Assembly (NCBI RefSeq): GCF_019599405.1
Contig: NZ_RKLQ01000001.1
Span: forward strand, 930,001-994,000
DNA from: Haloarcula salinisoli
GTDB taxonomy: Archaea > Halobacteriota > Halobacteria > Halobacteriales > Haloarculaceae
Direction: 5' to 3'
DNA: 64,000 nt
Each line of letters opens with the position of its first letter. Position 1 is the stretch's first letter. The notes under the pieces were generated by a model. The model was not told the origin of the DNA and ran no database searches. It was given only the letters and a program-made list of their open reading frames with translations. This document shows, in pieces, positions 5,483 through 48,246 of this stretch. A program made the position numbers and the translations under genes.

Positions 5483-5506
5483 TAATCGCCACCACGGTGA
5501 AACTGA

Positions 5507-10101
<4,595 letters not shown>

Positions 10102-10105
10102 CACC

Positions 10106-28989: not shown

Positions 28990-29062
28990 TTTGACCTCGC
29001 CTCGTTGCGGAGTCCAGTTCGGATAGAAACGCCTAACCGAGCCGGTGGTACATTCTCACATC

Positions 29063-29998
29063 ATGCGCGTATCGGTCGTCCTATGTACGCATACCCTGGA
29101 GCGGTACGATGACTGTTGCGAGGCGGCCGAGAGCGTTCTCGGGCAGTCCCACGAGGACGTCGAACTGGTGCTAGTCTCGGACGGGAACGACGAACTGTAC
29201 GAACAGTTCCAGGCCGATTTCGGGGACAATGACGACGTGCTGTGTACACGGACCGAGGAGAACGTCGGCCTCGCAGCAGCCCGGAACGCTGGGACGGCCA
29301 TCGCCACGGGCGACATCTTCGCCTTCTTCGACGACGACGCTATCGCCGACAGGGACTGGCTCGCGGAACTGGTCTCGGTCTACGAGCAGCGGGACGTCCC
29401 CGCTGCCGGCGGCCGGATGGTGCCCTACTGGGTGGCCGGCAAGCCCAAATTTCTTCCCGAGGAGTTCTACTGGCTCGTCGGCGTCACCCACCAGGGTTTC
29501 GGACCGAACGGCGACCCCGATGAGGCCGGGGAGGTTCGGAACACGTTCGGCTCGAACATCTCCTTTCGTCGCGAGGTGTACGAGACGCTGGGTGGGTTCG
29601 AGCCCGAAATCGGAGGCCGGACCGGCGAGAAGAACCTCCAGGCCGAGGAGCCAGAACTGTGTGCCCGGATGCAAAGCGAGTTCGGACACGGGGTCTACTA
29701 CACGCCCGAGGCAAAGGTGGCCCACAAGGTGTTCGACTACCGGACTGACCCTGGCTGGCTCCTCGACCGGGCGTTCTGGCAGGGCTACTCCAAACGAGGG
29801 ATGGAGGTGCTCGTTCCAGAGTCAACCGGTGATGAGTCGGACTTCCTTCGGCAGCTCCTGTTTGACTCGGTACCGGATAGGGTCGGTGACCTGGTCAAGT
29901 CGCCGTCCGTGGCGGCTGCCCTGCAGTTGTTCACGCTATTCGTCCTGACCGGGTGTGTCGGTGCGGGCTATCTCTACGGCGTCTCGGTGTGGGGGTAA
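29063..29998 (+). CDS. aglG: GT2 glycosyltransferase, AglG/AglI/AglE-like
   Basis: 311 residues from the ATG at 29063 (MRVSVVLCTHTLERYDDC). GT-A fold family 2: VLVSDGNDE, then the metal-binding AFFDDDAIADRDW, then a second motif region with NISFRREV. A hydrophobic C-terminal stretch (FTLFVLTGCVGAGYLYGVSV) anchors it in the membrane. It resembles the glucuronosyl/hexosyltransferases AglG/AglI/AglE that extend the dolichol-phosphate sugar in Haloferax. The exact step is not certain. It is divergent from aglB. Confidence 0.8.
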   Translation: MRVSVVLCTHTLERYDDCCEAAESVLGQSHEDVELVLVSDGNDELYEQFQADFGDNDDVLCTRTEENVGLAAARNAGTAIATGDIFAFFDDDAIADRDWLAELVSVYEQRDVPAAGGRMVPYWVAGKPKFLPEEFYWLVGVTHQGFGPNGDPDEAGEVRNTFGSNISFRREVYETLGGFEPEIGGRTGEKNLQAEEPELCARMQSEFGHGVYYTPEAKVAHKVFDYRTDPGWLLDRAFWQGYSKRGMEVLVPESTGDESDFLRQLLFDSVPDRVGDLVKSPSVAAALQLFTLFVLTGCVGAGYLYGVSVWG

Positions 29999-30301
29999 CA
30001 TAAGTCGGTTCGATACCCCGTTCCGTCTTCGGTTCAAAGCGGAGGACGGCAACAGCAGGCGAACAACGAGGAATTGACCCCACCGCGCTGTGAATCAAAT
30101 ATTGGTTCCCGATGAGAGCGTTCTTTTCCCAAAAGGGACAGTCGTGAAACCGGCCCAGCGGCGTGCATGGCCGTATTAATCGAAGCTACGTCCAGTGGAA
30201 TACGATTTCAGATTGCATGGGGAACAGAACAATCACTGCGTATCAGACTCCTGGGCGAGGACCGAGGAATATATTACCAGCCCATTCGCCATTTCTGGTA
30301 G
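29999..30301. other. Non-coding gap upstream of the GT4 gene
   Basis: No credible gene in about 300 nt. It is AT-richer than its surroundings, with a small tccc-aaaa-ggga inverted repeat near 30128-30139 and the TATA-like AATATATTA at 30268-30276, about 30 nt before the ATG at 30302. Confidence 0.6.
30268..30276 (+). promoter_or_regulatory. TATA-like box of the GT4-flippase operon
   Basis: AATATATTA, the strongest TATA match in the window, at leaderless spacing before 30302. Confidence 0.6.
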
Positions 30302-31420
30302 ATGCGTGTCCTCTATTTGACCGAGGAGGCGATTTCCTTTTCCGATGCGATGGTTAGAGGGGGTGCCATCCACGTCCGAAACGTCGTCACTGGCCTCCGC
30401 GATCGTGGTCACGACGTGACGCTGCTTGACTGGAACTTGGCCCCTGAACGCGGGTTCCAGCGCTCTATCTCTCCCCGAACTCGATTTGTATGGGGTCCAC
30501 TCCTGACATTAGACCGTGCCGTCGACATCGGCAGACAGCAGGATATCGACGTAGTCGTTTCGAAGACCCGTAAAACGTATTTACCAGGTTTGGTAGCTGC
30601 CCGACGGCTGGGTGTTCCCCACGTCGTCCACGTCGGCTCTAGCTTGAACCCGCCCGTTGACGGGCTAGGGGAACAGCTTGACAATGCGTCGTTTTCAGCG
30701 CGCCTTCGCGCTCCCCACGACGGATACCTCGTTGTCTGTGACTACATTGGCAGACAACTCCGCAATCGAGGTGTTTCCAACGACCGAATCTTCGACGTTC
30801 GCAACGCTGTCGATGTGGATAAATTTCACCCAGAATCGGTCCCGACCCCGCTGGCCGAACATTTCCGGGAGCAAATCGACGCTAGCGGGGCTAATCAGGG
30901 CACTCACAACCTGGGATTCGTCGGTGGGCTACAGCCCTACAAGGGCCTCGACGACCTTGCGGGCGCGCTTGACCAAACGGAGCGCGACTGGCACGTGCTG
31001 GTGGCGGGTGACGGCCCGGAGCGCGACCGCCTTGCGGCCCGCTTTGGCGAGCGCGCTACCTTTCTCGGCTCGGTTCCCTACGAGCAGGTGCCCGCGCTCT
31101 TCCACGAGTTCGACGCGTTTTGTCTCCCCTCACATACCGAGGGGCTGCCACGAGTCGTTCTCGAAGCGCAGGCGACGGCCACACCCGTGATTGCTACCCG
31201 CGTGGGCGGCGTTCCGGAAGTAATCGATGACGGCGAGACAGGGCTATTGTGTCCGCCCCAGCGACCGGCGGCACTGGCCGCGGCGCTGGAGAGGCTGGCG
31301 AGCGACGAGTCGGAGTGTGAGCGACTCGGCAACCGGGGCCGCGCCGCCGTCGAAACCGAGTTCTCGTGGCCGGCGTTGTACGAGCGCTACGAGCGGGCGC
31401 TCCGACAGGTGATCGAATGA
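30302..31420 (+). CDS. GT4 glycosyltransferase
   Basis: A 372-residue GT-B family 4 glycosyltransferase. The N-terminal domain starts MRVLYLTEEAISFSD. The C-terminal domain has FVGGLQPYKGLDDL and the nucleotide-sugar E-x7-E motif in SHTEGLPRVVLEAQATATPV, then RVGGVPEVIDDGETG. No membrane anchor; it probably works on the cytoplasmic face on lipid-linked sugar. Its stop overlaps the flippase start (ATGA). It has few GATC sites, like the chromosome to its left, so the base-composition shift begins right after it. Confidence 0.9.
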   Translation: MRVLYLTEEAISFSDAMVRGGAIHVRNVVTGLRDRGHDVTLLDWNLAPERGFQRSISPRTRFVWGPLLTLDRAVDIGRQQDIDVVVSKTRKTYLPGLVAARRLGVPHVVHVGSSLNPPVDGLGEQLDNASFSARLRAPHDGYLVVCDYIGRQLRNRGVSNDRIFDVRNAVDVDKFHPESVPTPLAEHFREQIDASGANQGTHNLGFVGGLQPYKGLDDLAGALDQTERDWHVLVAGDGPERDRLAARFGERATFLGSVPYEQVPALFHEFDAFCLPSHTEGLPRVVLEAQATATPVIATRVGGVPEVIDDGETGLLCPPQRPAALAAALERLASDESECERLGNRGRAAVETEFSWPALYERYERALRQVIE

Positions 31421-32949
31421 GTGACCTCGACCAAGCGGTTCGGGACGTGGTGAAGGGTGCAAGTATCGTCTACGTCGGCCTTTTTTTGGAATTGCTGATC
31501 GCGTTCGTCGCACAGGTCGTTGCTGCGCGGTACCTCTCGGTCGGCGACTTCGGAGGGTTGACCGCCGGAACCGCACTGCTTGACGTCGGCTCGATCGTCG
31601 CTGGACTCGGGTTGGCCTCGGGATTGACACGATATCTCCCCCGTGTCGAAGCCGCCCAGAAGCGGCTGCTCGGGCTGTTTACTGTGGGGGTGACGGGGCT
31701 GACTTCGACGATTCTCGGGACCGGCGTTGCGCTCAACGCTTCGTTCATCGCGACACGGATATTCGGTGACCCGTCGGTCACGGTCAGCATCCGGATCTTT
31801 GGGATGGCGATCCCGTTCGCGGCACTGCTGAACGTCGCGGTCGGTGGCATCCGCGGCCAGGAGCGATCGACCGACCGCGTCCTCGTGAAGAACATCGTCC
31901 AGCCGCTGGCCCGCATGACGCTCGTCGCCGCGGCCGTCTGGTACGGGCTGGGACAGGCCGGCCTGGCAGGGGCCTACGCCGTTCCCTACGCGGTCAGTGC
32001 GATCATCGGGCTGGCCCTGTTTTACCGATCACTGCCCGACGTGTCGACGGTCGTCGAAACCAACTTGGTGAGCGAAGTCACCCGGTACTCGCTCCCGTTT
32101 ACGATCAGTGACGTCTCGTCGTTCGTCTACCGGAGCAGCGATATCTTCCTCGTGCTCTACTTTCTGGGCGGCGCGGCCACCGGAATCTACGGCGTCGCCT
32201 ACGCGGCAGTCAGTTTCATGGGGATGTTCTCGACGGCGTTCAACTTCCTGGGTACGCCCATCGCCAGCAGACTCGAAAACGAGGGTGATATCGAGGAAGT
32301 GATGGAGCTGTTTCGATCCGTCGTCCGGTGGTTGATCGTCGCCAGCGTCTGTGCACTGGTGCCACTAGCTGTGTTCGCCACTGACTTCATCTCGATCATC
32401 TATCAGTCGAAATACGCAAGTGGTGGCCCAGTCCTGGCGGTACTGGCGCTTGGGTTTGCTGCGAAGAACGTCCTCAGTATTCATAATTCCATCCTGCAAG
32501 CGGTCGCCAGATCCAAGACGCTTTCGGCCAATACCGTTATAGCGGCCGTCAGTAACCTCCTACTCAACGTTCTGCTCATCCCACGGTTCGGGCTCGTCGG
32601 TGCGGCCATCGCGACACTGCTCTCTTTCCTGATTCGGGACGGACTGGCAGCAGTCCAGGTGTACTTGACGCTGGGGAGCTCGCCGCTCACACCGAGTGCG
32701 CTTCGCCCCCTGGTGCCCGCAGTCCCTTTTCTCTTGATCGTCTGGACCGTCGTCGCGCCCGCCACGCCGGGAACTTTCCTGTGGTTGCTGGCCGTGACTG
32801 GACTCACCGCGACCGTCTACACCGTGGTCGTGCTGGTCGCGTTCGGCCTCTCCGAAACGGAATTGATGATCATCCGGTCGGCCGAAGAGCAGTACGGCCT
32901 CGACTTCTCCCGGATAGACTGGCTGATTACCAGACTGGCTAAACGATAA
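31417..32949 (+). CDS. Wzx/AglR-type polysaccharide flippase
   Basis: 510 residues from the ATG at 31417, overlapping the GT4 stop by 4 nt. It is almost wholly hydrophobic with about 12-14 helices (VYVGLFLELLIAFVAQVVA at the start). The polysaccharide-biosynthesis family signature is seen in AARYLSVGDFGGLTAG and in the second half FIYQSKYASGGPVLAVLALG-like region. It should move the lipid-linked oligosaccharide across the membrane before AglB acts. Coupling to the GT4 supports this. It is the first gene of the GATC-rich block. Confidence 0.9.
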   Translation: MSDLDQAVRDVVKGASIVYVGLFLELLIAFVAQVVAARYLSVGDFGGLTAGTALLDVGSIVAGLGLASGLTRYLPRVEAAQKRLLGLFTVGVTGLTSTILGTGVALNASFIATRIFGDPSVTVSIRIFGMAIPFAALLNVAVGGIRGQERSTDRVLVKNIVQPLARMTLVAAAVWYGLGQAGLAGAYAVPYAVSAIIGLALFYRSLPDVSTVVETNLVSEVTRYSLPFTISDVSSFVYRSSDIFLVLYFLGGAATGIYGVAYAAVSFMGMFSTAFNFLGTPIASRLENEGDIEEVMELFRSVVRWLIVASVCALVPLAVFATDFISIIYQSKYASGGPVLAVLALGFAAKNVLSIHNSILQAVARSKTLSANTVIAAVSNLLLNVLLIPRFGLVGAAIATLLSFLIRDGLAAVQVYLTLGSSPLTPSALRPLVPAVPFLLIVWTVVAPATPGTFLWLLAVTGLTATVYTVVVLVAFGLSETELMIIRSAEEQYGLDFSRIDWLITRLAKR

Positions 32950-32990
32950 GCTCGAAAATCAATACTCATAACCCACCGGTTCGCCAGTGT

Positions 32991-33851
32991 ATGCATATGA
33001 GTATCGACCCGCAACACGCCCTCTCCGAGGTCCGCAAGAACTACGGTTCGTTCAACTGGTGGCGCAATCGGGTGGTCGTGCCCTTCGTCTTCGGGACCGC
33101 AACGCGGCTCCACCCGGGCTATCCCGGGTACGGTGAGGCAGTCCATGTCATGGAGGAAGACTGGGACACGCTGATTGTGCTCGACGCCTGTCGGGCCGAC
33201 TACTTCGAACAGGTTGCCGAGATGGACCGGTACGACGAGTACAGCAGCCGAATCAGCCTCGGCAGTCACTCCAGTGAGTGGACACGCCGCAACTTCCAGG
33301 GGAAACGGTTCGGCGACACCGTCTACGTCTCGGCGAACCCCCACACCTCGCTGGAAGCCGGCGACAGCTTCCATCATATCTACGAGCTCTGGGAGACCGA
33401 CTTTGACGACGAGGCCGGTGTGGTCCCTCCCGACGCGGTCCGGGACGCCGCCATCGAGGCCCACGAACAGTACCCCGACAAGCGACTGATCGTCCACTTC
33501 ATGCAACCCCACGGCCCATTTCTCGGGAGCGATGTCCAGGTCACCGACGAATCCTCCTACTGGCAGGCCTACGCAGAGAACCTCGACTACGTACTCCCGT
33601 TCGTCCACGAAATCATCGATGCCGTCCACGAAAAGACAGTGGTCACCGCCGACCACGGGCAGGCTTACACTGGGGGCATCAAAGATTATCTGGGGATCGG
33701 CGGACACAAACCCCGGCTCCGGTTCCCCTCGTTGGTAGAGGTCCCATGGGCCGTCGTCGAGGGCGACCGGCGCGAAATCGTGGCCGGCGAGATCAACCGA
33801 GCGGAGGGCGAACAGGTTCAGGACCGACTCAAGGATCTGGGCTACCTGTAG
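32991..33851 (+). CDS. Short alkaline-phosphatase-superfamily (sulfatase-like) protein
   Basis: 286 residues from the ATG at 32991; a second ATG two codons later is equally possible. Superfamily metal sites are visible: VLDACRADYF (Asp65) and the TADHGQAY segment, then GIGGHKPR. The nucleophile loop is GSHSSEWTRR, so the nucleophile would be Ser or Thr; there is no sulfatase CxPxR. It is shorter than the other two sulfatase-like proteins nearby. It ends DRLKDLGYL, a C-terminal signature shared with three neighbours. It overlaps the convergent methyltransferase gene by 23 nt. Confidence 0.78.
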   Translation: MHMSIDPQHALSEVRKNYGSFNWWRNRVVVPFVFGTATRLHPGYPGYGEAVHVMEEDWDTLIVLDACRADYFEQVAEMDRYDEYSSRISLGSHSSEWTRRNFQGKRFGDTVYVSANPHTSLEAGDSFHHIYELWETDFDDEAGVVPPDAVRDAAIEAHEQYPDKRLIVHFMQPHGPFLGSDVQVTDESSYWQAYAENLDYVLPFVHEIIDAVHEKTVVTADHGQAYTGGIKDYLGIGGHKPRLRFPSLVEVPWAVVEGDRREIVAGEINRAEGEQVQDRLKDLGYL

Positions 33852-34557
33852 CCGACTCGTCCAACTCGAACCCTGTGGTATCGATGATAAAAACCGGGTC
33901 ACCCCTCTCGTTTTTGAACTCCTTCGTATGCTCGAACATCTGGGCCCGACGGATGTCGATGGCGTCACCGTACAGCGCCTCCAGACGACCTGTATAATAC
34001 TCCATACTATCGGCTGGGTCGAGCAGTCCGTTTTCGTTTTTGAGTAGCGGTCGATCTCCTGGCGGCTCGTATACCAGAACGTCACACCGGTCCATGACGA
34101 CCTGGAACATCCACTCGGCAGTGTCTAGTCCGGACGCTTTCTCCCAGTGGTGATGAACCGTCATGAACAGGATCACGTCCACCTCCGGAAGCTTGGTGAC
34201 GTTCGCTGAATTGATGTCCCATTTGACGAACCCGCACCCGTCGATGTTATCTGCCCGCTCTCTCGCACGTTGAACTCTCGATTCCTTGTAATCGATACCA
34301 AGTGAGAAGGCTCCGGTAGCCGCCGCCCGTCTCGTAAAAAAACCTTCTGCACAGCCGATATCGATGACCGACCCGGCGTCCGAAACCTCCGGCTCTATAT
34401 ACTCCCACCGCTCGTGATTGTCGACACGCTCGCCGTGGTAGTCGACATCTGTCCGGTTGAAAAACCTATAGTAAATGAAATCTTTGATACCACGACCAAC
34501 CTCTGATGCACCGCCCGTCGTATATAACTCTTTGACCCTCTGTAATTTTGCTCTCAT
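33829..34557 (-). CDS. SAM-dependent methyltransferase
   Basis: 242 residues from the ATG at 34557; a GTG four codons upstream is possible. Motif I is SVIDIGCAEGFFTRR (about 64-78), followed by an acidic loop SLGIDYKES and motif IV region EVDVILFMTVHHHWEKA. It looks like a small-molecule or sugar O-methyltransferase of glycan loci (compare AglP, which methylates hexuronic acid), but the substrate is not readable. It is divergent from the ParB-like gene, and both starts fall in an AT-rich 69-nt gap. Confidence 0.82.
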   Translation of the reverse strand: MRAKLQRVKELYTTGGASEVGRGIKDFIYYRFFNRTDVDYHGERVDNHERWEYIEPEVSDAGSVIDIGCAEGFFTRRAAATGAFSLGIDYKESRVQRARERADNIDGCGFVKWDINSANVTKLPEVDVILFMTVHHHWEKASGLDTAEWMFQVVMDRCDVLVYEPPGDRPLLKNENGLLDPADSMEYYTGRLEALYGDAIDIRRAQMFEHTKEFKNERGDPVFIIDTTGFELDESATGSPDP

Positions 34558-34626
34558 GAAAATTGCCACTCAGGATTAGCCTGGGTAATCGAAGTAATTA
34601 AAACTATACTTTTTCTCCTTTAGGTA

Positions 34627-35493
34627 ATGAACCTCCGGTCCGTCAGTCGCCAGGCGTGGCTGAGACTCCGGGATACGGGGATTCGGTCACTGGTACGTGC
34701 AGGAATATCGTTCGTATTCGTGGCACTCGGTCGACTGTACAATCGTGGTCTGGTACGCGCCCGACATTATCGACACAGACGACGGTACGGCGGGAGTGCT
34801 CCTGAGCCGTACGGAGTCATTTTTATCGACCCCACCGAGGTCGAACGGCGGATCTACCCGTACGTTGGGAACGAACTGTCGGAATACGGCACATACATTC
34901 GCGACGGGAACTGGGACCGGAGCTATACGGAGCGTACGATCCAGTATCTTCCTGACATTCCACAGCACACTCAGCTCGTGTTTCCACTGGAGGAATCGCT
35001 ATTCTTCACGACGATCAGAGCCTGGATCGAGGACGACGACGAGTGGAAAGAGACCGACTGGTACGCGTTGGACACCCAGTACAAATCGGTTGCGAAGGCG
35101 GAGCAACGGCTGGACCAGATCGAGACGCTGTACGAGGAGATCGTTTCCGGCAACTATCTGAGCCAAGCGACGTTGTCGAACCGGAACCCACACTCGCGGT
35201 CGGTACTCAGATACGCGTTGTTACCGCCTGCACATTTCGAGGTCGAAGTGGCGATCGGCCGTGATGGGGAGATATTCTTCGTCGATGGAAAACATCGGTT
35301 TTCGATAGCAAAATACACTGAAGCCGAACGGATCCCTGTCCGGGTGGTGGTCCGCCACGAGGCGTGGCAGGAGTTGCGTCAGGAGATACACGACACGAAA
35401 GCGGTCTCGGAGCTGAGTTCACGGGCGCGATCCCACCTGTCGCACCCGGATATGGCCGATCTCACGGACGACGGCCTCACCGAATCGGAGTAG
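34627..35493 (+). CDS. ParB/sulfiredoxin-fold-like protein in a glycan locus
   Basis: 288 residues. The C-terminal third contains EVAIGRDGEIFFVDGKHR followed by FSIAKYTEAERIPVRVVVRH. This strand-DGxHR-helix-strand layout is that of ParB/Srx domains (GxHR motif, here DGKHR near 219-223). Members outside chromosome segregation include small-molecule kinases. The N-terminal part has no clear domain; a basic helix at the very start (RQAWLRLRDTGIRSLV) may sit on the membrane. Its role here is unknown. Tail-to-tail with the sulfatase-like gene (4 nt apart). Confidence 0.65.
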   Translation: MNLRSVSRQAWLRLRDTGIRSLVRAGISFVFVALGRLYNRGLVRARHYRHRRRYGGSAPEPYGVIFIDPTEVERRIYPYVGNELSEYGTYIRDGNWDRSYTERTIQYLPDIPQHTQLVFPLEESLFFTTIRAWIEDDDEWKETDWYALDTQYKSVAKAEQRLDQIETLYEEIVSGNYLSQATLSNRNPHSRSVLRYALLPPAHFEVEVAIGRDGEIFFVDGKHRFSIAKYTEAERIPVRVVVRHEAWQELRQEIHDTKAVSELSSRARSHLSHPDMADLTDDGLTESE

Positions 35494-35496
35494 CGG

Positions 35497-36882
35497 TCAC
35501 TGTTTGTATCCCAGGTCTTCGAGTCGCTGTTTCACGGCCTCGCTTTCGTCGACCTCCGGAAGCGTGATATCGGTCGCATCGGCTTCGTCGAGATACGTCT
35601 GCATTTGCGTTTTGTGCTCGTCGACGACGGCCGGATGGTGGTCGCTTACGTCCTCCAGCTCGTCGGGATCGTTCATCAGGTCATACAGCTCGATGACACC
35701 ATCGGCGGTTCGCCAGAAGCACTTCCACCGGTCGGTTCGGCTGGCGAGAGTTTTCCCCCCTCGGCCCGTACAGAGCGCCATCTCCTCACCCCCGACAGGA
35801 GCGTCGAGATCGGTCCCCATAGTGGTAGAACTGATACATGGAGCCCGGCTCACCCCCTGCATGCGCTCGGGCGTCTCGATGTCGACCAGATCGAACATCG
35901 TCGGTCCGAGATCTATCAGTGACACCTGCTCGTCGACACGTTCGTTTGTCAGCCCTGGCGCACGGATGATGAGGGGCACTCGAAGGAGTTCGTCGTAGAG
36001 ATACGGGTGATGGCCAAAGCGGTCGTGTTCGCCGAAGGCTTCGCCGTGGTCGGCGGTGACGACGATTGCCGTGTCGTCGAGGATGCCACGCGTTTCGAGG
36101 TCGTCGAGCAGTCGTTCGATGGTCTCGTCGACCAGGCGAATCTCGCCGTCGTACAATGAGAGCAGATCCGCGACATCGTCGTCGGTCAGCTCCTCGGGAT
36201 TTTCCTGCATCATACCGTTGAGGTTGGCTTTGCGACGGGTCGACAGCGTCTCCAGGCCCTGCTTTTCGAGATGTTCGTCCGGCGGGGTGAAGGGGTAGTG
36301 AACGTCCATGTAGTGGAGCCACATGAAAAACGGCTGGTCGCCGTCCCACTCCTCGTCGAGCCAGCGGGTCGCCCGGTCGGTGATCTCCGGGGCACGGACG
36401 TACGCGGAGGTATCGGCCGTCATCTGGAACATGTGGTACCCTCGCCGGAGCAGTTTGTAGAGCAGGCCGTCGGGATCGAGACGTTCGTCGACGAAGTTCT
36501 TGAGCGTCCAGGCGTCGTCGTCGTCCTCGCCGCCGTCGTTGAACGTATCGAAGCCGTGGTTGTAGTTTTTTTCGGGACCGAGATGCGGGTTCGAGTGGTA
36601 CCCGACGGTGGTCCAGCCGGCGTCACGGAACGTCTCCGAGAGGAAGGGGCGCTGTTCGTCGAGATATCGGTAGCCACCGTACATGAGCGGGTGCGTTCCG
36701 GTGAGGATCGTGGGGAAACTCGATGGCGTGTTGGGACCGTTCGCGACCGCTTGATCGAACGAAACGAACTCCTCGGCCAGTCGGTTGAGCGTCGGTGCCC
36801 GGGTGGCACTGTCCGGCATCCCGAGTGTGCGGTCGTACCGGAGACTGTCCACAGTAATCAGAATGACGTTACGAACTCCCAT
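35497..36882 (-). CDS. Sulfatase-like alkaline-phosphatase-superfamily enzyme, no formylglycine cysteine
   Basis: A 461-residue enzyme. The N-terminal metal Asp is in ILITVDSLRYDR (Asp12), and the second metal site is VVTADHGEAFGEHDRFGHH. Aligning the LTG landmark with sulfatases places Thr52 (NTPSSFPTILTG) where the formylglycine Cys should be, and Phe56 where the conserved Arg should be. So it is probably not a true sulfatase; Thr-nucleophile relatives are phospho-group transferases or phosphodiesterases. No signal peptide or helix. It ends KQRLEDLGYKQ and is divergent from its paralogue at 36983. Confidence 0.85.
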   Translation of the reverse strand: MGVRNVILITVDSLRYDRTLGMPDSATRAPTLNRLAEEFVSFDQAVANGPNTPSSFPTILTGTHPLMYGGYRYLDEQRPFLSETFRDAGWTTVGYHSNPHLGPEKNYNHGFDTFNDGGEDDDDAWTLKNFVDERLDPDGLLYKLLRRGYHMFQMTADTSAYVRAPEITDRATRWLDEEWDGDQPFFMWLHYMDVHYPFTPPDEHLEKQGLETLSTRRKANLNGMMQENPEELTDDDVADLLSLYDGEIRLVDETIERLLDDLETRGILDDTAIVVTADHGEAFGEHDRFGHHPYLYDELLRVPLIIRAPGLTNERVDEQVSLIDLGPTMFDLVDIETPERMQGVSRAPCISSTTMGTDLDAPVGGEEMALCTGRGGKTLASRTDRWKCFWRTADGVIELYDLMNDPDELEDVSDHHPAVVDEHKTQMQTYLDEADATDITLPEVDESEAVKQRLEDLGYKQ

Positions 36883-36982
36883 TGGTCACTTCTTTTCTGA
36901 GGTGACTCATCAGTGTTTTCGTTGGGCAGACTCCCGGGGGCGAACCCGAAAGAATACAACGGATATCTGCGAACGAGGACCT

Positions 36983-38446
36983 ATGTCTCGACCGCACGTC
37001 TTTCTGATTACTGCGGACGGTCTCCGGTACGACAGACTTTCTCACTCCGGCAACGACGTAGAGACCACCCCGACACTCGATAAATTGGCCAACTCGGGTG
37101 CCGTCTGTCACAACACCATCGCCACCGGGACCGGTACCCGGACGAGTTTTCCGGGCATCCTCACCTCGTCGTACCCGCTGATGTACGGCGGGTTCTCCCA
37201 GATGACACGCCACCGTCTCCCGATCAGTGAGCTGTTCCAGGAACGGGGCTACGTCACACTCGGTGTCAACACGAACGCACAGTTGCACACGCGGTTCGGC
37301 TGGGACCGCGGGTACGATGTCTACTACGACAGCGAGCAAACGACGGTCAACAATCCCGTCGGCGCGTTCACGCAACCGGACGACGACACTGACGACGAGC
37401 AGTCGTTCATCGATGCAAACCTGGAGGAGCTGAAATCCGAGGTGTACGAGCGCCTCGACCACGACGGGGCGCTGTTCCGGACGTTAGAAACTGCCTACCG
37501 GCAGATAGAGGGTCGAACACCGCCATACGACCGGGCTGTCGAAACGGTCGACCGCACGCTCTCGTTCATCGATCAGGCACCCGACGACGAACCGCTGTTC
37601 GTCTGGATTCACTTCATGGAGACACACTCGCCGTACTTCCCGCCCGGTGACTACCGGACGAAGTATCTCAGCGAGCGGGTCTCGGACGGGCGGATCTGGC
37701 GGCTCAACGACCGGCTCCACACCGAACCCGACAGCCTGACCGAGGCGGAGGTCTCCATCATCTCACAGCTGTACAACGGTTCGCTCCGGTATCTCGACGA
37801 CCAGATTGGCCGGCTGTTCGACGGCCTGCGAGAGCGAGACCTGTGGGACGACAGCGCCGTCGCCTTCAGTGCCGACCACGGCGAGCAGTTCCGCGAACAC
37901 GGGGAGCTGACCCACTGTGCCAAGCCCTATGAGGAGGGCGTCCATGTTCCCCTGTTGTTCAGGATTCCCGACGAGCACCTGACCGACATCGACGGTGTGA
38001 CCTCGACCATCGACATCGCCCCGACACTGCTCGATATCGCCTTCGACGACCCCCGCCCGTCCGAAAAGTACCACGGCCAGTCGCTAGTGCCGGTGCTCGG
38101 GGGCGAGGCCGAGATCGACGGCGACCGTGCGGTGTTCAGCCAGGACGCCTCCGAGGCGGGGCGCGAGACGAACCTCGCCCACCGGATCACGGGCTGTCGA
38201 ACCGCCGACTGGAAGTACATAACGTCCGTCCAGGACGACTTCGAGACGTTACTCTTTGCCCTCCAGTCTGACCCCGGTGAACAGGAGAACGTGGTTGCGG
38301 ACCACCCGGACGTTCGAGACGCGTTCGCCGACCGGGTCGAACGCCACTACCAGCAGTCGGCCTACACCGACTACGAGATCGCCGACGCGGTCGACACCGG
38401 CCACGTCAGCGAGCGCCTGCAGGCGCTGGGCTATCTCGACGAGTGA
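36983..38446 (+). CDS. Second sulfatase-like alkaline-phosphatase-superfamily enzyme
   Basis: 487 residues from the ATG at 36983 (MSRPHVFLITADGLRYDR). The frame extends upstream to 36785 but there it overlaps the divergent paralogue. Layout is the same as 35497-36882: metal Asp12, then Thr52 in GTRTSFPGILTS at the nucleophile position, Phe56 in place of Arg, and FSADHGEQFREHGELTH. It ends SERLQALGYLDE. The two paralogues are head to head with about 100 nt between starts, so they may share a promoter region. Confidence 0.85.
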   Translation: MSRPHVFLITADGLRYDRLSHSGNDVETTPTLDKLANSGAVCHNTIATGTGTRTSFPGILTSSYPLMYGGFSQMTRHRLPISELFQERGYVTLGVNTNAQLHTRFGWDRGYDVYYDSEQTTVNNPVGAFTQPDDDTDDEQSFIDANLEELKSEVYERLDHDGALFRTLETAYRQIEGRTPPYDRAVETVDRTLSFIDQAPDDEPLFVWIHFMETHSPYFPPGDYRTKYLSERVSDGRIWRLNDRLHTEPDSLTEAEVSIISQLYNGSLRYLDDQIGRLFDGLRERDLWDDSAVAFSADHGEQFREHGELTHCAKPYEEGVHVPLLFRIPDEHLTDIDGVTSTIDIAPTLLDIAFDDPRPSEKYHGQSLVPVLGGEAEIDGDRAVFSQDASEAGRETNLAHRITGCRTADWKYITSVQDDFETLLFALQSDPGEQENVVADHPDVRDAFADRVERHYQQSAYTDYEIADAVDTGHVSERLQALGYLDE

Positions 38447-39181
38447 TCAGAGGTCGTGTTCGTCCGCGAAGGCAGGATAGAACGCACGGACGTCGTCGGG
38501 CGTGCCGAGGACGTGGACGCGGTCAGTCGGCACCGAGACGAGATCGATATCGTCACCCTGGTCGACTAGCCAGTTGTACAGCGGTGCGATGTACGTCTCG
38601 CCGTACTCGGCTTTCACGTCCCCGGCGGCAGCCTCGTAAGCCGCCCTGAACCGACCCCAGGATTCGAACTGGTAGAAGCCGATGGTCGCGGCGTCGGAGA
38701 CGCGCTCTTTCTCGGTGACACGGGTGACGGAGCCGTCGGCGTCGGTCTCGACGAAACTCCAGCGCTCGCCCTCGGGTGAAAAGACGGGAATCGAGTGACC
38801 CAGTCCTACGTCGTCGGCCCGGAGTTCACCCGGCTCGATGTAGGTGTCGATGTTGAAGATGGCCATCGTCTCCTCGTCGGGAACTAGGTCGTCGGCGTAC
38901 ATCGCCGTCGAGGCCTGGCCGTCTGTTACCTCCGGGACCGACACCGTCTCGTACTCCTCTATCCCGACACGTTCACAGTGGGTGGCGATAACGTCGTCGA
39001 CGTCGTGGTCGGCGCGGGTGACGAACACGAACGAGTCGTCCGTGAAATCCGACAGTCCGTCGAGTGCGTACTCGAACATCGTCCGTCCGTCGATCTCGAT
39101 GAGGAACTTCGGCCCCTCGATGCCTGCCTCTTTGAACCGGCTGCCACGTCCCGCCATCGTGATGACGACCGTTCTGCTCAT
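38447..39181 (-). CDS. Sugar/small-molecule nucleotidyltransferase
   Basis: 244 residues from the ATG at 39181; 17 upstream codons of the frame are Arg-rich and antisense. The nucleotidyltransferase signature MAGRGSRF (9-16) and PKFLIEIDGRTM (24-35) are clear, and FNIDTYIE supplies the catalytic Asp. Size and lack of a hexapeptide repeat fit single-domain enzymes of capsule loci that make CDP- or other NDP-linked groups. It overlaps the upstream fusion gene by 4 nt (ATGA) and is the last of four coupled genes. Confidence 0.87.
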   Translation of the reverse strand: MSRTVVITMAGRGSRFKEAGIEGPKFLIEIDGRTMFEYALDGLSDFTDDSFVFVTRADHDVDDVIATHCERVGIEEYETVSVPEVTDGQASTAMYADDLVPDEETMAIFNIDTYIEPGELRADDVGLGHSIPVFSPEGERWSFVETDADGSVTRVTEKERVSDAATIGFYQFESWGRFRAAYEAAAGDVKAEYGETYIAPLYNWLVDQGDDIDLVSVPTDRVHVLGTPDDVRAFYPAFADEHDL

Positions 39182-40845
39182 AGGTCCCCTCGCGCGGCGG
39201 CGAACTTTTCGATTCCGGTTGCGAGCATACACTGCTGGCGCTGGGTACTGTCGCTGTGGAGCGGCACCATACTCAGATACAGGAGCGATTCGAGCAGTTT
39301 CACGTCCTGCACATCCTCGGGATACTCCTGTGCGAGCTGGTCGTCGAACAGTTCCTCCCGGCGGTCGTGAACTGGGTCCGTGTGCGTCTCGAAGGAGACC
39401 TGCTCCTCGGAGACGGACACGTCGAACAGGTCGTTGATGATGAACTCGTAGTGGCCCGAGACACTGTGGCGAAGCTTCGCCAGATCGTACCGGTAGTCCC
39501 CGTAGATCGTGTGGGGACCGAACGCCCCGCGAGGGTCGATCAGTTTCGGGATGTTGTTTCGCACGTCGAAGAGCACGTTCGGGAAACAGAGATCTCCGTG
39601 GATCACGCTCAGTCTATCCCGTTCGAGGAGGCAACTCTCCGTGAGTGTGTCCCGGAGTATGTCGAGGATTGCCGGCACCGTCGGGTAGGTCTCGCCGTTG
39701 ACGGTGATCTCGCCTGGCTCGAAGAAGGGGTCCAGACCGGCCATCCCCTCGGCCCGGCGGAGTCGGTTGACGGTCTTCTCGTAGTACATCTCTTCGAGCG
39801 TTTCGGTTATCTCGGCGGGGTCGGTCTCCAGCTGGAACTCCTGGAACCGCTCCAGCAGGGTAAACAGTGAACTGTAGATGTTGCTCCAGAGGTGGAGGCC
39901 GTGTGAGCCGTAGATGTAGATGTCGCTCAGCGTCGGGTATCCGATGTACTCCATGGTAATCGACGGGTCGACGTAGGAGTCCGAGTAGTCGTAGATCTGC
40001 GGGATGTACGGGCGGAGCTGTTTGGGGAGTTTCTTGAACCAGGAGATCTCGTTACGGAGGGTATCGCTGTCTTCGCTGGATTTCGTTATCGTGTTCGTGG
40101 CGACGTCGATGCTGTTGAACTCTCGAACGTTCAGCGAGTCACGCTTGTTCTGGTAGTAGGTATCGAGGTGGCCGATGTCGACCCAGCGGTCGGCTTCGAG
40201 CAACTGGGACGGCTGATTCGACAGGTACGACTGGAGCGCGACGTAGAAGGGGTCCAGCTTGCCGTCGTCCCCGCCACAGGCTGCCTTCAGCAGCGTCCAG
40301 TAATCCGCCGGGGCAGTCAGCTTGAACTGTCCGGTGAACACGTTCCGTGGGCTGTCGAACACCCGGCTGAACTTCTCGGTGATCGAGTCGATTTCGCCAT
40401 CGTCCGTCTTCGAGAAGGAAGTCCACCGGTAGGCATGCGAGACCTCCGAGCAAGAGACCGTGCTCGCGTCGACCCCGTAGCCGACCGGCGAGACGATGGT
40501 GTCCGCGAAATTAATGTACAGATCTGCGTCATCGAGCGACCGCCTGTCGGCGATCTGGCTGAGCGAGTCTGCCACCGTCTCGCCGAGAGAGGTTGTCCCC
40601 GAGACGTCGAGCAGCGTCCACTCCCGGTCCAGCCGGTCCAGCATCGACGCGAGCTTCTCGATTTGCTCGTCACCGGCCACGTACAGATCCATGTCGTGTT
40701 CCTCGTACTCCGCGGCGATATGTTCGATTGCCGGCTTCCCGTCGAAGGGAATCATCGCGGTCGCGATCGGCCCGAGATCGAACTTCAGCTCGTCGGGGAC
40801 CAGCACGGCCGAGGGCACCAGTAGGATATCCTCATTCGTCGCCAT
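39178..40845 (-). CDS. Nucleotidyltransferase-like / APH-type kinase fusion
   Basis: 555 residues in two parts. Residues 1-250 resemble the nucleotidyltransferase fold (LVPSAVLVPDEL, MIPFDGKPAIEHI) but lack the GxGxR signature, so this half may be inactive. Residues about 260-520 form a phosphotransferase of the APH/choline-kinase type: VIHGDLCFPNVLFD (HxDxxxxN, about 416-428) and LIDPRG (about 436), the metal Asp. Fusions of this kind occur in bacterial capsule loci. A role in phosphorylating a glycan substituent is inference. It overlaps the next upstream gene by 14 nt. Confidence 0.8.
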   Translation of the reverse strand: MATNEDILLVPSAVLVPDELKFDLGPIATAMIPFDGKPAIEHIAAEYEEHDMDLYVAGDEQIEKLASMLDRLDREWTLLDVSGTTSLGETVADSLSQIADRRSLDDADLYINFADTIVSPVGYGVDASTVSCSEVSHAYRWTSFSKTDDGEIDSITEKFSRVFDSPRNVFTGQFKLTAPADYWTLLKAACGGDDGKLDPFYVALQSYLSNQPSQLLEADRWVDIGHLDTYYQNKRDSLNVREFNSIDVATNTITKSSEDSDTLRNEISWFKKLPKQLRPYIPQIYDYSDSYVDPSITMEYIGYPTLSDIYIYGSHGLHLWSNIYSSLFTLLERFQEFQLETDPAEITETLEEMYYEKTVNRLRRAEGMAGLDPFFEPGEITVNGETYPTVPAILDILRDTLTESCLLERDRLSVIHGDLCFPNVLFDVRNNIPKLIDPRGAFGPHTIYGDYRYDLAKLRHSVSGHYEFIINDLFDVSVSEEQVSFETHTDPVHDRREELFDDQLAQEYPEDVQDVKLLESLLYLSMVPLHSDSTQRQQCMLATGIEKFAAARGDL

Positions 40846-42019
40846 ACTCGTACCACCCTGGACCGAAATCCGCCGGGAAATCCGCCGGTTCTACCGTGTC
40901 ACGAAAGAGGTCGCCCATACTCTCCTCTGGCCACGCCGCATCACGATAGAGGTTTCGACTGCGGTGGTCACCCGTGAACCGCTCGTCCGTGAACGGTACC
41001 ACGGCGAACAGGAGCCGGTGACCCTGGTGGTAGATCTCCTCCCCGACGTTTTTCGCCAGTTGCGTGAGTTTCTCCTCGAATGGCTTGTCGAGAAAGTCGG
41101 CTTTGACCGGATAGCGACGGCCAAAGGTTACAGGCCGGTAGCCGTAACACCGAACCCGAAGGTTCTGTTTCAACTCTTTCCATCGCAGCCGGCGGAACAG
41201 TTTCGATTCCTGCATCTCGTGGTTCTCGCGCAATCTGGTGACGTACTCCCCCCCGGTGATGTCGAACCGACGGAGGTAGTTCGCCTGGACACTCCTGCCG
41301 TAGTCCTCGGGGAAGTCTTCGGCCGCCACGTGGACGAATCCGTACTCCGGGACGAACGTACTCGGTCGCACGCCCGCGTACGGCTGGGTCTTCTCCCTGT
41401 CGTCCCACCAGAGATCGGTCGTCTTGTCCGAATAGTAGAAGAAGTTCGACCGGCCGACGTTCCCCAGCAGGAGCAACATCAGCATATTGTGGATCGCGGT
41501 ATGGGGAAGCAGATCCCGGGGGTCGAACTCGAAGAAGGAACGCTCCGCAAAACCGTCCGACTCGAACAAGAAAAACTGGTCCATGACGCTCCCGAGCCAG
41601 AACTTGGGTCGCCGGTAGGACGATCCCATCCCCCGGACAGCGGCGTGTTTCTCCGAGTCGTCGAGCCGGTCAACCAGACCGAGCAGCTTCGACTCATCAA
41701 GTGGCCAGGCGTCGGCGTGGAGATGCATCACGTACTCACAGCCAGCGTCCATCGCGCCGCGACAGCTCCGTTGCATCGAGTCCAGGATGCGGCTGTTGAG
41801 GTTGATATCGGCCCGCAATCCTGACATCTCGGGTGTGTACTCGATCTCTGCGCCCTGAACAAAATGATCCACGTCGATGGGTTCGATCCGACTCGCCGCG
41901 TCCGGATGGTTGCTACAGACGGAGATGTAGTACTCCTCTTCGAAGTTGTGGCGCAGAATATCGACGAGTACCCCGAGGTCGTCGAACTTGTCGTACAGCG
42001 AGACGGCGATTCCGATCAT
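40832..42019 (-). CDS. Glycosyltransferase-like protein of unknown family
   Basis: 395 residues. The N-terminus (MIGIAVSLYDKFDDLGVLVD) and the YVMHLHADAWPLDESKL segment (Asp103 in an HADA motif) look like a GT-A nucleotide-binding core with a DxD-like site. The C-terminal 200 residues (TTDLWWDDREKTQ, FVHVAAEDFPEDYGR) match nothing I recognise. No signal peptide or helices. It is tied by overlaps to the HAD gene (4 nt) and the fusion gene (14 nt), so it probably transfers the group those enzymes activate. Confidence 0.6.
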   Translation of the reverse strand: MIGIAVSLYDKFDDLGVLVDILRHNFEEEYYISVCSNHPDAASRIEPIDVDHFVQGAEIEYTPEMSGLRADINLNSRILDSMQRSCRGAMDAGCEYVMHLHADAWPLDESKLLGLVDRLDDSEKHAAVRGMGSSYRRPKFWLGSVMDQFFLFESDGFAERSFFEFDPRDLLPHTAIHNMLMLLLLGNVGRSNFFYYSDKTTDLWWDDREKTQPYAGVRPSTFVPEYGFVHVAAEDFPEDYGRSVQANYLRRFDITGGEYVTRLRENHEMQESKLFRRLRWKELKQNLRVRCYGYRPVTFGRRYPVKADFLDKPFEEKLTQLAKNVGEEIYHQGHRLLFAVVPFTDERFTGDHRSRNLYRDAAWPEESMGDLFRDTVEPADFPADFGPGWYEYGDE

Positions 42020-42420
42020 GAGTCGAGGGCCCTGGCGTCGGTTTCCAGCAGTGCCAGGATCTCCTCCCGGGAGTTGTTCATGAACTCACCGGGACGAATC
42101 GCCTTGTCGTCGACGTAGAACCCGTCGTGGCCACACCACGGCTTACCGTAGTGGATCTCGTCGTACGGAACGTCGTGTTCCTCAAGCCAGTCGAGCAAAA
42201 TCGGGGCGGTCTCGGCGTTTATCTTTCCGGTGCGACCCTCGTGGGTGTTCATGTTCCGCGCCGTGTAGAGAACGATATAAAAACCCTCCTCATGGTATGA
42301 GCGCAGGCGCGAGAGCACCGCCTCCTTGGGTTCGCGCTCGGAGTAGGGGGTGTCGTCGTCCTTCTCGACCAGCACCCCGTCGATATCGAAAACGACTCTA
42401 TCGTGTTTCTCGACGGTCAT
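42016..42420 (-). CDS. HAD-superfamily phosphatase of capsule-locus type
   Basis: A 134-residue HAD protein. The nucleophile motif is VVFDIDGVLVE (Asp12, Asp14), motif II is LYTARNMNTHEGR, and the late acidic motif is FYVDDKAIRP. The compact capless form with YGKPWCGHDGFYVDDKA is typical of capsule clusters, where it stands beside nucleotidyltransferases. It is the first gene of the four-gene operon, with a TATA-like tract (42441-42450) about 25 nt upstream. Confidence 0.85.
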   Translation of the reverse strand: MTVEKHDRVVFDIDGVLVEKDDDTPYSEREPKEAVLSRLRSYHEEGFYIVLYTARNMNTHEGRTGKINAETAPILLDWLEEHDVPYDEIHYGKPWCGHDGFYVDDKAIRPGEFMNNSREEILALLETDARALDS

Positions 42421-42440
42421 CGTCTGGACCGAGAAGAGGA

Positions 42441-42450
42441 TTATAAATAA
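42441..42450 (-). promoter_or_regulatory. TATA-like box of the HAD-GT-kinase-nucleotidyltransferase operon
   Basis: The minus strand reads TTATTTATAA, centred 25 nt before the HAD ATG at 42420, so the four coupled genes probably have their own promoter. Confidence 0.55.
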
Positions 42451-42568
42451 AATCTACGTATGCGTCCCCCCCAGCAGGCCGTGTCTGGAGTTCTCCGTCG
42501 GGGCGTGTCGGAGACTCTCCCGGTGGCCGGGAAGGCGTCTCCCAGGAGCGAAGAAGGCAGCGGTCCCG

Positions 42569-43360
42569 TCAGCAGAGCTCACTCGCCGTCACGAACGCCG
42601 CGGGGGCGACCGGGTCAAGCAGTCGTTCGACACGATTGCGGAACTCACTGCCGGCGTTTTCCAGATCGGCGTGATGGGTGGTCGCGTCGTAAGGATGCAT
42701 GTACATGGAGAACCCGTTCGACTCGGCACGGAGCCACGAGAGAGCACGCAAGCCTGAGCAACCGCGCCTGTCACTCCGTAACGCGTTCGCGGTCGCAGTG
42801 AGTTCGCGGTTCGGGAACAATCGTAGACCCACCAGTGAGAGCAGGGGTGGACGCGCATACGTCGTCGGAAGTTCGAACAGACCAGAGTCGAGGGTGAACG
42901 GATTCTGTCTGGCCGTCAGCGACTCCGGAAGGTAATTCGTGTATCTGACGTTGATTGACGCGTCTACCTCGAATCCAAGTTCCTGGAGCACCTCGAACGT
43001 CGTCTCGCTGGCGCTATGTCGACCGGCACGGAACGCCGTCACCTCACGTTTGTCCACGCTGGCCACCTCGGCGAGTGTCGAACGGGTCCTTCTGATCAAT
43101 TCACGTTGACGGTCCGCGTCGAGTTCCGCGAGCTGGTCGTGTTCGTGGCCGAATTCGCGGGGATGAACGTGGACACCAATCTCGTGGTCAGCGGCGAGGT
43201 CAGCGACGACCTCTGGCAGTTCGGTAGCGATTCGATGAGTCGCGTAGACGGTCCCACGAGGGACGACGTCGTCGAACCAGTCCATTGCTTCGGCGACTCC
43301 GTCGAGTGTGTCATCCTTGTTGGGTTCGAGGTCAACGGAAAAAGCAACCCACTCAGTCAT
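42569..43360 (-). CDS. Polysaccharide deacetylase-family protein (NodB-like), 1
   Basis: 263 residues. The NodB homology fold is seen in FSVDLEPNKDD (motif 1 Asp), EIGVHVHPREFGHEHDQL (His metal ligands) and TAFRAGRHSAS (motif 3). The YMHPYDATTHH segment near the C-terminus fits the last motif. No signal peptide, so it acts in the cytoplasm, probably on a sugar or lipid-linked glycan. Deacetylase activity is by family only. It lies 52 nt after the GT4 gene upstream on the same strand and is the last of the operon from 48007. Confidence 0.82.
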   Translation of the reverse strand: MTEWVAFSVDLEPNKDDTLDGVAEAMDWFDDVVPRGTVYATHRIATELPEVVADLAADHEIGVHVHPREFGHEHDQLAELDADRQRELIRRTRSTLAEVASVDKREVTAFRAGRHSASETTFEVLQELGFEVDASINVRYTNYLPESLTARQNPFTLDSGLFELPTTYARPPLLSLVGLRLFPNRELTATANALRSDRRGCSGLRALSWLRAESNGFSMYMHPYDATTHHADLENAGSEFRNRVERLLDPVAPAAFVTASELC

Positions 43361-43412
43361 CCCTTCGACGTTGCCGGCCCTCCGATATTTATATTATCAT
43401 TGCTGGTCGCGC

Positions 43413-44501
43413 TCACTTCTTGCCGGCTGTCTCGACAAGCGCGTCCGCGTACGCCTCGCGCAGCCGGTCGGGATTAAACCTCTCACCAAGTGTCGCTGGG
43501 TCGTGCTCGCCAGTGAGCAGGTCCGCCAGTTCGGCGTCGTCCTCGAAACTTGCACTGGCTGCCGTTGCGCTGTCGCCTACATTACGGGCGACCGTGGGTG
43601 TGCCACAGGCCGCTGCCTCCAACAGCACGTTCGGTAGCCCCTCGATGAGAGACGGGTGGACGACGAGATCAGCCGCCCTGTAGTAATCAGGCATGGCAAC
43701 GAAGTCGACGCGGCCCAGCGGTTCGACACCGTGAGTGGCCGCCAGCTCCGGCCGCATCGGCCCGTCACCGATAACGTACCACCGGAACGGTTCACCACAA
43801 CCGTACAGCTCCTCGGCCGTCTCGACGAGTGTCCGCATCCCTTTCCGCTCGGTGAGCCGGCCCACGGTCAGGAAGATTCGTTCCTCATCAGGGAACCCGA
43901 GTTCACGAGCGAGTTCTCGCTCACGCTCGGCCGGGACGGGCGAGAACTTTTCGCGGTCGACAGGCTGTGGAATCTCTGTGACTGGTATATCGTCGTTTCG
44001 GCGCTTTATTTCGGAGCGACCGTGGGGGCCTAGCACTATAACGCGTTCACTCCCGTGAACCGGGACGCGACCAAAGAGGTTGTTCAGCGCGAACGCCTTC
44101 ACTGCACTCACGCCCTCGGAGAAGCGGAACTCGTTGAAGTTGTCGCCCGCGAACCGTGTGAGAACGGGCGTCCCCGTCCGACGGCCGGCAATGGTAGTCG
44201 CACAGCCATGCAACGGGAACTTCGTAACTTGCCAGAGGAGGTCCGGCTCCTGTTCGTTCGCGTAGGTCGTCACCACCTGTGTGAGCGTCCGTAACGTCCC
44301 GATAGCCCTCTCAGTTTCCGACAGCCCCGGGTCGACCGGGGTGTACCCATCTACGTCCTCTCCACATCCCTCCCGAATGAGTAGGTCACAGTTCAGGTCG
44401 TGTCCTGCGTCGGTCAGCAATCGCCGGACATTTTCGAGGAAAGTCCGGACGTTGCCGGGTAGTCGCGTCCCGCCGACGACGCCTACACGTAGCTCAGTCA
44501 T
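43413..44501 (-). CDS. GT4 glycosyltransferase
   Basis: A 362-residue GT-B enzyme. The N-terminal domain starts VGVVGGTRLPGNVRTFLENV. The C-terminal domain has FLTVGRLTERKGMRTLVE and the E-x7-E motif in PSLIEGLPNVLLEAAACGTP. Soluble, with an Arg-rich linker (KRRNDD). The acceptor is unknown. It overlaps the upstream deacetylase gene by 8 nt. Together with the other genes of the 48007-42569 run it probably builds a second branch or repeat of the surface glycan. Confidence 0.88.
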   Translation of the reverse strand: MTELRVGVVGGTRLPGNVRTFLENVRRLLTDAGHDLNCDLLIREGCGEDVDGYTPVDPGLSETERAIGTLRTLTQVVTTYANEQEPDLLWQVTKFPLHGCATTIAGRRTGTPVLTRFAGDNFNEFRFSEGVSAVKAFALNNLFGRVPVHGSERVIVLGPHGRSEIKRRNDDIPVTEIPQPVDREKFSPVPAERERELARELGFPDEERIFLTVGRLTERKGMRTLVETAEELYGCGEPFRWYVIGDGPMRPELAATHGVEPLGRVDFVAMPDYYRAADLVVHPSLIEGLPNVLLEAAACGTPTVARNVGDSATAASASFEDDAELADLLTGEHDPATLGERFNPDRLREAYADALVETAGKK

Positions 44502-48007: not shown

Positions 48008-48030
48008 ATCTTCCCGAAGATAGGGGCCAG

Positions 48031-48040
48031 TGATAACTCT
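48031..48040 (-). promoter_or_regulatory. TATA-like box of the 48007-42569 operon
   Basis: The minus strand reads AGAGTTATCA, centred 28 nt before the ATG at 48007. It lies in a 239-nt gap after the TrmB gene in which no gene is seen. Confidence 0.5.
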
Positions 48041-48246
48041 TGTCGAACACGCTGGCTGCCGCTTCCGTCCACATTTCGCCAGACCGCCTGATTAGGGCGA
48101 GTACGGTCGTCCAATGACCGACTCGGCGACTCGGCTGGTGTCCTTTCCGAGGGAAGCACGGTACAGACTGTTCTCTGTGGCCTGTTGGTGCCGCGGGAGA
48201 GACTATTGGTAGGCAATCTCGTGGGTGACATAGTTCCTGGAAAGAC

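Follow-up and report, generated by a model that had tools for sequence, protein, structure and literature searches.

A glycan-gene block with a neutral number of GATC sites in a GATC-poor haloarchaeal chromosome

Within the 64-kb stretch of the Haloarcula salinisoli chromosome analyzed here (positions 930001–994000 of contig C1; hereafter the window), a block of glycan genes at 31417–42420 carries many copies of the palindrome GATC, and the sequence on either side of it carries few. Which of these two states is the exceptional one, and how did it come about? As GATC is a frequent target of DNA-cutting defence enzymes, the pattern probably records defence pressure as well as recent gene transfer. 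A sequence-only reading had described the locus as a GATC-rich block inside a GATC-poor chromosome and had tallied, by hand, about 20, 70 and 35 sites from left to right. The exact numbers bear these tallies out: 22 sites in 1–31416 (0.70 per kb), 73 in 31417–42420 (6.63 per kb) and 32 in 42421–64000 (1.48 per kb).

Depleted surroundings and a neutral block

Expected site numbers were obtained with a codon-shuffle null, in which synonymous codons are permuted within each gene so that the protein and the codon usage of that gene are held fixed. The genes entering this null are our own open reading frame calls, which cover about 68–83% of five loci; genes that were not called, including those at 30302–31420, 34627–35493 and 42569–43360, stand outside it, which leaves 64 of the 73 sites of the block, and locus L040 was left out of the counts. 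About one fifth of the genome (4.03 Mb in 10 contigs) was sampled, the window included. Under the null, the 23 genes of the left arm should contain 114.2 ± 7.9 GATC sites and contain 20, and the 14 genes of the right arm should contain 59.2 and contain 17, with flank ratios of observed to expected sites (O/E) of 0.18–0.29. The nine called genes of the block contain 64 sites where 64.5 ± 4.2 are expected (O/E 0.99), and the four genes between 42421 and 48260 take an intermediate position (10 observed, 20.1 expected). The contrast noted in the sequence-only reading is thus real, but its description has to be turned around: The block is not enriched, the flanks are depleted. The anomaly lies in the surroundings, and the block itself is at the neutral GATC level.

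The depletion extends over the sampled chromosome. In contigs C1 and C2 we counted 190 and 135 sites against 1020.8 and 677.9 expected (O/E 0.19–0.20), which amounts to 325 against 1698.7 in 427 genes; old host sequence consequently keeps about one fifth of the GATC sites its codons would yield. Other words behave differently, as the codon O/E in C1 is 1.01 for GTAC, 0.69 for CTAG, 0.51 for CATG and 1.40 for GAAC, compared to 0.19 for GATC. Contigs C4 and C5, which have a lower G+C content, are less purged (codon O/E 0.58 and 0.72). When the sampled main contigs are cut into 99 ten-kb segments, O/E under a Markov expectation has a median of 0.17 and exceeds 0.5 in only four, every one of which overlaps the glycan cassette studied here, so that numerous blocks of this kind in core genes, which the sequence-only reading had named as a refutation, were not seen in the sample. 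Somewhat raised GATC was also observed elsewhere on the main contig, namely in L013:1–15000, in L006 and at the end of L015 (ten-kb O/E up to 0.48); these stretches are possibly older islands.

Loss of GATC at the DNA level

The manner in which GATC is avoided can be read from codon contexts. In the 427 core genes, ATC makes up 96%, 93% and 88% of the isoleucine codons preceded by C, T and A, respectively, but 23% of those preceded by G, where ATT (37%, 411 codons) and ATA (40%, 449 codons), both rare in other contexts, take its place. Moreover, aspartate is written GAT in 2.2% of cases when C follows: Relative to their frequency before other bases, T-ending codons are 1.9–6.9 times as frequent before C in the case of His, Phe, Tyr and Asn but 0.20 times as frequent in the case of Asp. 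The frequent use of GAT for aspartate before C in GATC-rich lineages had suggested an active preference for GATC there; this idea was rejected, as it reflects a general habit of placing T before C that also holds for Asn, His, Tyr and Phe. The remark that Glu-Ile-Asp is spelled with ATA outside the block and with ATC inside stands in part: Among 38 occurrences in core genes we found GAG ATA GAC 14 times, GAA ATC GAC 14 times, GAG ATC GAC nine times and GAG ATT GAT once, and the block offers only three occurrences (GAG ATC GAC twice, GAA ATC GAC once). Translation is not the cause of the loss, because intergenic DNA is purged as well: 150 pieces with a total of 26,882 bases contain 10 GATC sites where 72.5 are expected (O/E 0.14), with GTAC at 1.02.

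Comparison with a relative, Haloarcula rara, reveals how quickly these sites turn over. The aligned sequence in the neighborhood of the window (146,124 bases, mostly at 87–94% identity) contains 95 GATC sites in H. salinisoli and 109 in H. rara, and only 29 are common to both. Thus 29 of the 95 own sites are kept in H. rara, compared to 404 of 533 for GTAC, 181 of 238 for CATG, 274 of 389 for AGCT and 136 of 198 for TGCA, at an equal mean flank identity of about 0.92. Such rapid gain and loss of GATC sites indicates recent selection in one lineage or in both. In the words that face a lone GATC the changes are spread across all four positions, and among the single-step replacements listed, GATT and AATC (37 cases together) are matched by GGTC and GACC (41 cases). 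As decay of C to T cannot yield ATA, deamination does not explain the loss; it was rejected on the grounds that ATA matches ATT after G and that all four positions change. There is, accordingly, continuing selection against GATC that acts at the level of DNA and is due neither to deamination nor to codon preference.

Turnover of the glycosylation cassette

The block lies within a site of changing content. In five relatives, blastn homology to the window ends at about 30.0 kb and restarts at about 48.26 kb, with 6.4–8 kb of different content in between; two further loci (H. rara and H. pellucida) show the flank on the side of AglB, the oligosaccharyltransferase gene, only. We therefore delimit a variable glycosylation cassette site at 30000–48260. 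The AglB protein itself is 87% identical to that of H. rara in the best segment. Within the cassette, 46975–47940 shares 69% identity with a part of the H. rubra cassette in the opposite orientation. In five of seven relatives the codon O/E of the cassette is above that of the AglB flank: H. rara 1.14 and 0.29, H. rubra 0.78 and 0.14, QS_6_64_34 0.35 and 0.00 (two cassette genes), H. salina 1.25 and 0.86, and H. pellucida 0.47 and 0.37. H. rara harbors a different cassette at the same site, which is likewise unpurged. No tRNA gene that could mark an island edge was found anywhere in the window, and cassettes may move by recombination in the flanks too.

One block gene, a weakly phosphotransferase-like protein encoded at 39178–40845 on the minus strand, can be followed into other hosts. 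Of the 144 remaining genomes three encode a relative, and seven congeners encode none; two good relatives, each 48% identical, come from one GATC-poor and one GATC-rich genome. The family contains 14 sites for 14.6 expected here, 17 for 17.1 in the GATC-rich genome G040 and two for 8.6 in the GATC-poor genome G057, and is thus purged or not according to the host. The proposal that the glycan genes came from a lineage without GATC avoidance gains from the exchanged content between fixed flanks and from the absence of this gene in the congeners, though the two good relatives, one from each GATC state, point to no particular donor lineage.

The extent of purging can be followed gene by gene. The conserved left flank comprises AglB (25893–28955, minus strand; Pfam STT3/AglB), which is purged with five sites for 13.4 expected, and a GT2 glycosyltransferase (29045–29998, plus strand; Pfam) without any site for 2.3 expected, the last gene before homology to the relatives stops. 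A GT4 glycosyltransferase (30302–31420, plus strand; Pfam) just left of the block has GATC only at 30401 and 31411. The block then begins with a polysaccharide flippase (31366–32949, plus strand; Pfam; 15 sites, 11.4 expected), followed by a methyltransferase-like protein of small-molecule type (33829–34569, minus strand; weak NCBIfam matches under the cut-offs; three sites, 2.8 expected), two sulfatase-superfamily enzymes assigned by Pfam (35497–36882, minus strand, nine sites, 7.1 expected; 36785–38446, plus strand, six sites, 8.1 expected) and a nucleotidyltransferase-like protein (38447–39232, minus strand; Pfam, and NCBIfam under its cut-off; two sites, 3.5 expected). The phosphotransferase-like protein, whose APH match in Pfam is under the cut-off, carries 14 sites for 14.4–14.6 expected; it is followed by a protein without Pfam or NCBIfam match (40832–42019, minus strand; nine sites, 7.2 expected) and, as the last block gene, by a HAD phosphatase of capsule type (42016–42420, minus strand; NCBIfam EcbF-BcbF, somewhat under the cut-off; two sites, 2.2 expected). 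Beyond it, three cassette genes on the minus strand at 43413–46817 (GT4, unknown and phosphodiesterase; Pfam) are purged, with three sites together for 12.1 expected, and a second unpurged gene, the GT4 glycosyltransferase at 46814–48007 (minus strand; Pfam), has seven for 7.5. With the TrmB-type regulator (48247–49092, minus strand; Pfam), where homology restarts, the conserved and purged right flank is reached (no site, 2.4 expected). The edges originally assigned to the block, the flippase start and the end of the HAD gene, are hence correct for the block, but a further unpurged gene follows past purged ones. Since 43.4–46.8 kb is purged and 46.8–48.0 kb is not, the cassette appears to be a mosaic of residence times or of donors.

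Candidate agents and competing explanations

To place the purged state in its phylogenetic frame, we compared one set of 145 Halobacteriales genomes by their CGATCG counts, a proxy for GATC. The counts range from 47 to 11,565, and with fewer than 310 CGATCG per Mb taken as low and at least 700 as high, thresholds chosen after the counts were known, 54 genomes are low, 10 intermediate and 81 high; five genera include both low and high members. Codon contexts were counted in 39 of 79 named loci. Those of Halorussus, Haloferax, Haloprofundus, Halomarina/Halobium and Haladaptatus show the isoleucine shift after G, and GATC-rich lineages show little or none of it. Two other palindromes attracted attention: CATG is nearly absent from the Halobellus loci L074, L081 and L085 (Markov O/E 0.08, 0.10 and 0.14), where GATC is near normal, so that this lineage seems to have purged another palindrome, and AGCT is strongly depleted (Markov O/E 0.24–0.27) in L043, L057, L060 and L116, of which one comes from H. 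pellucida, two come from Halorussus and one from Halostella.

Three predicted nuclease families are candidates for the selecting agent. MutH/Sau3AI-type proteins (PF02976) occur in four of the 145 genomes, all low; the one from G124 matches a Sau3AI structure chain (E 2.8e-10), and the neighbors scanned around the four genes comprise three methylases (N6/N4, C5 and D12) and a PglZ protein. The latter adjoins the Sau3AI/MutH-type nuclease of G092 (L211:2160–3260); PglZ is a component of BREX-type defence systems. A GATC enzyme, NphI, has been described from Natronomonas pharaonis. DpnII (PF04556) is likewise present in four genomes, three low and one intermediate, and in three cases adjoins a strong D12 methylase. 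The third family, Mrr-type proteins of about 340 amino acids, adjoins a Dam-type methylase in eight genomes (two low, six high), including loci L146–L151, whose neighboring genes resemble a restriction-modification pair in which an Mrr protein would serve as the nuclease. In nine genomes, all low, the Mrr-type gene lies also, or only, away from a Dam-type methylase; G108 among these has both paired and unpaired copies, G123 has a Dam-type gene elsewhere, and G031, with the two genes about 8 kb apart, was placed in neither group. Two elements of the nuclease motif, its aspartate and its Q-x-K, are invariant in 14 of 14 aligned members, paired and unpaired alike. The ten proteins flanking five unpaired loci include no methylase, and housekeeping proteins are among them (RIO1 kinase, topoisomerase I, PcrB). 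Because PADLOC classes Mrr proteins as type IV, methyl-directed enzymes, their cutting may be limited to methylated GATC. HVO_0682 of Haloferax volcanii is reported to cut methylated GATC.

Unpaired Mrr, DpnII and MutH combined are found in 15 of the 54 low and in none of the 81 high genomes (p = 2.8e-7 with kinship ignored, several of the 15 being congeners). Strong D12/Dam-type methylases, present in 27 genomes (six low, three intermediate, 18 high), do not by themselves separate the states (p = 0.11). Within the genus Haloarcula, a full-length Mrr-type protein, a predicted nuclease, occurs in six of 32 genomes. In H. salinisoli itself a D12-class adenine methylase (L154:5661–6773; G000:C4:80454–81182), not Dam by score, stands beside a 704-amino-acid open frame. 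Several searches gave no usable signal: The Dam model PF05869, unsuited to this purpose, had no match, Pfam Mrr_cat is uninformative since it occurs in 127 of 145 genomes, and DpnI was found in none of 145 genomes in a search whose controls were silent too. Weak Mrr-like Haloferax proteins (L176–L178) were dropped as candidates because they mainly resemble one another.

From these observations we infer restriction as the cause of purging and a recent arrival of the block: Recurrent GATC restriction likely keeps the chromosome poor in this word, and the block is likely a glycan island acquired so recently that it is still unpurged. The chromosome is under ongoing DNA-level selection against the palindrome; the block would consist of foreign genes for surface glycans that reached the cassette site next to AglB recently relative to the time purging takes and for this reason still hold a neutral number of sites, and the genes at 43.4–46.8 kb would either be longer resident or stem from a purged donor. 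The most likely selecting agent would be nucleases of DpnII-, Sau3AI/MutH- and Mrr-type that are gained and lost in the lineage. Several results weigh against this explanation. All three nuclease families are missing from the genome of H. salinisoli, and a methylase search limited to D12 found no Dam, as the one D12 protein on C4 reaches 18.4 bits where the dam cut-off is 114.85. Among the low genomes, 39 of 54 lack DpnII-, MutH/Sau3AI- and unpaired Mrr-type nucleases, and once Dam-paired Mrr is added (G031 included), the association shrinks to 17 of 54 low and six of 81 high genomes (p = 3.8e-4, kinship again ignored). Furthermore, ATT exceeds ATA after G in the Halorussus, Haloferax and Haladaptatus loci, where replacement routes are thus unequal; the cassette O/E is below that of the flank in two of the seven relatives (H. 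amylovorans 0.45 and 0.60, QH_8_67_36 0.21 and 0.38); and a donor search with one block protein, which is present in four of 145 genomes including its own, identified no donor. The earlier suggestion that the host or its past restriction systems select against GATC is therefore upheld as far as selection at the DNA level is current and nucleases cluster in GATC-poor relatives; among the possible causes, past systems are the best supported.

Other explanations differ in what they make of the same data. GATC-poor alleles might simply pass better between neighbors that differ in GATC methylation or restriction, which would require no nuclease in the cell itself and would suit a genome devoid of all three families; relatives do hold DpnII and Sau3AI-type systems and Mrr proteins both with and without a Dam partner, and PMC4687349, which offers the same idea for other prokaryotes, reports that of 42 genomes with methyl-directed GATC systems 38 avoid GATC. 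This scheme would predict less purging in rarely exchanged DNA, and we regard it as a minor contender. We find it improbable that the cost of unmethylated GATC stems from a DNA-binding or repair activity such as that of a nicking repair enzyme: The many low genomes without the nucleases searched for and the purged intergenic DNA would agree with it, and mismatch-repair nicking is raised in the same paper, but MutH-family matches are few (four of 145) and the one tested is most like Sau3AI. Similarly poor prospects attach to mutational loss, in which a methylated or lesion-prone C of GATC would decay to T and the block would merely be younger; GATT and AATC are indeed among the common replacements and ATT prevails after G in the three genera named above, but in H. 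salinisoli ATA is as frequent as ATT after G, and GGTC and GACC are as frequent as GATT and AATC opposite lone sites. We give practically no credence to an artefact of composition or protein content, which was rejected: The block has 60.1% G+C and the left arm 64.4%, but the null preserves the codon usage of each gene, stretches of similar G+C are purged nonetheless (L030, 61.0% G+C, O/E 0.15; the C6 sample, 62.4%, 0.14), and so is intergenic DNA.

Recurrent restriction could also act in an unusual form, which we put forward as a speculative possibility: Purged haloarchaea might keep a lone chromosomal gene for a GATC nuclease without a methylase, the host being marked as self by the absence of sites. 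These cells carry many genome copies, and occasional self-inflicted cuts repaired from site-free copies would convert GATC away. If true, this would be restriction without modification coupled to a site-eroding drive that accepts any replacing base, and newly arrived DNA such as the glycan cassette would be the uneroded exception.

Restriction-site avoidance and low GATC in Haloarcula and Haloferax are already published. Palindromes targeted by restriction are under-represented in host chromosomes, sometimes as a trace of lost systems, with GATC a named outlier; that genomes with methyl-directed systems avoid it was termed surprising, and easier exchange between differently methylated strains was suggested as a benefit (Rusinov 2015, PMC4687349). 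Our case resembles this in that a short palindromic restriction target is scarce in the host chromosome, and differs in that no GATC system was found in the genome and in the codon-level and intergenic purging, the fast turnover and the switching within genera. For haloarchaea, and in line with our own counts, 0.50–0.65 GATC per kb was given for Haloferax, 2.1–2.7 for Haloarcula main chromosomes, 0.71 for Natronomonas pharaonis and 7.9 for N. moolapensis, and GATC-dense stretches of Hfx. volcanii were noted, with selected function or gene acquisition left open as their cause (Ouellette 2018, PMC5867850); here, for the same word in the same class, a stretch of this kind is linked both to the exchange of a glycan cassette and to a codon null. 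GATC frequency was found to vary with methylase content across Halobacteria, which include an orphan Dam (cHG W), with emphasis on over-representation in most genomes (Fullmer 2019, PMC6471742); we likewise see variation across the class, but by the CGATCG proxy 54 of the 145 genomes sampled fall into the GATC-poor group. Haloviruses avoid the same word, having no or almost no sites, which was attributed to host restriction (PMC3622292, PMC7230728, PMC2194725), whereas the cellular chromosome studied here retains about one fifth. Finally, haloarchaeal cell-surface genomic islands share with our locus the variable surface-glycan genes between conserved flanks (PMC4535781); GATC state as a criterion comes from the present analysis and does not appear in the accessible part of that paper. 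In the literature searched, mostly partial texts with few subscription journals, we came across no study that analyzes chromosomal GATC of haloarchaea at the level of codons or of site turnover.

Within one and the same cassette, missing purging distinguishes recent from old DNA, and the same pattern recurs at the same site of H. rara with a different cassette. If this is general, the GATC deficit would work as a clock that tells how long foreign genes have resided in purged haloarchaea. For finding the agent of GATC loss, the five genera of mixed GATC state provide a natural comparison.

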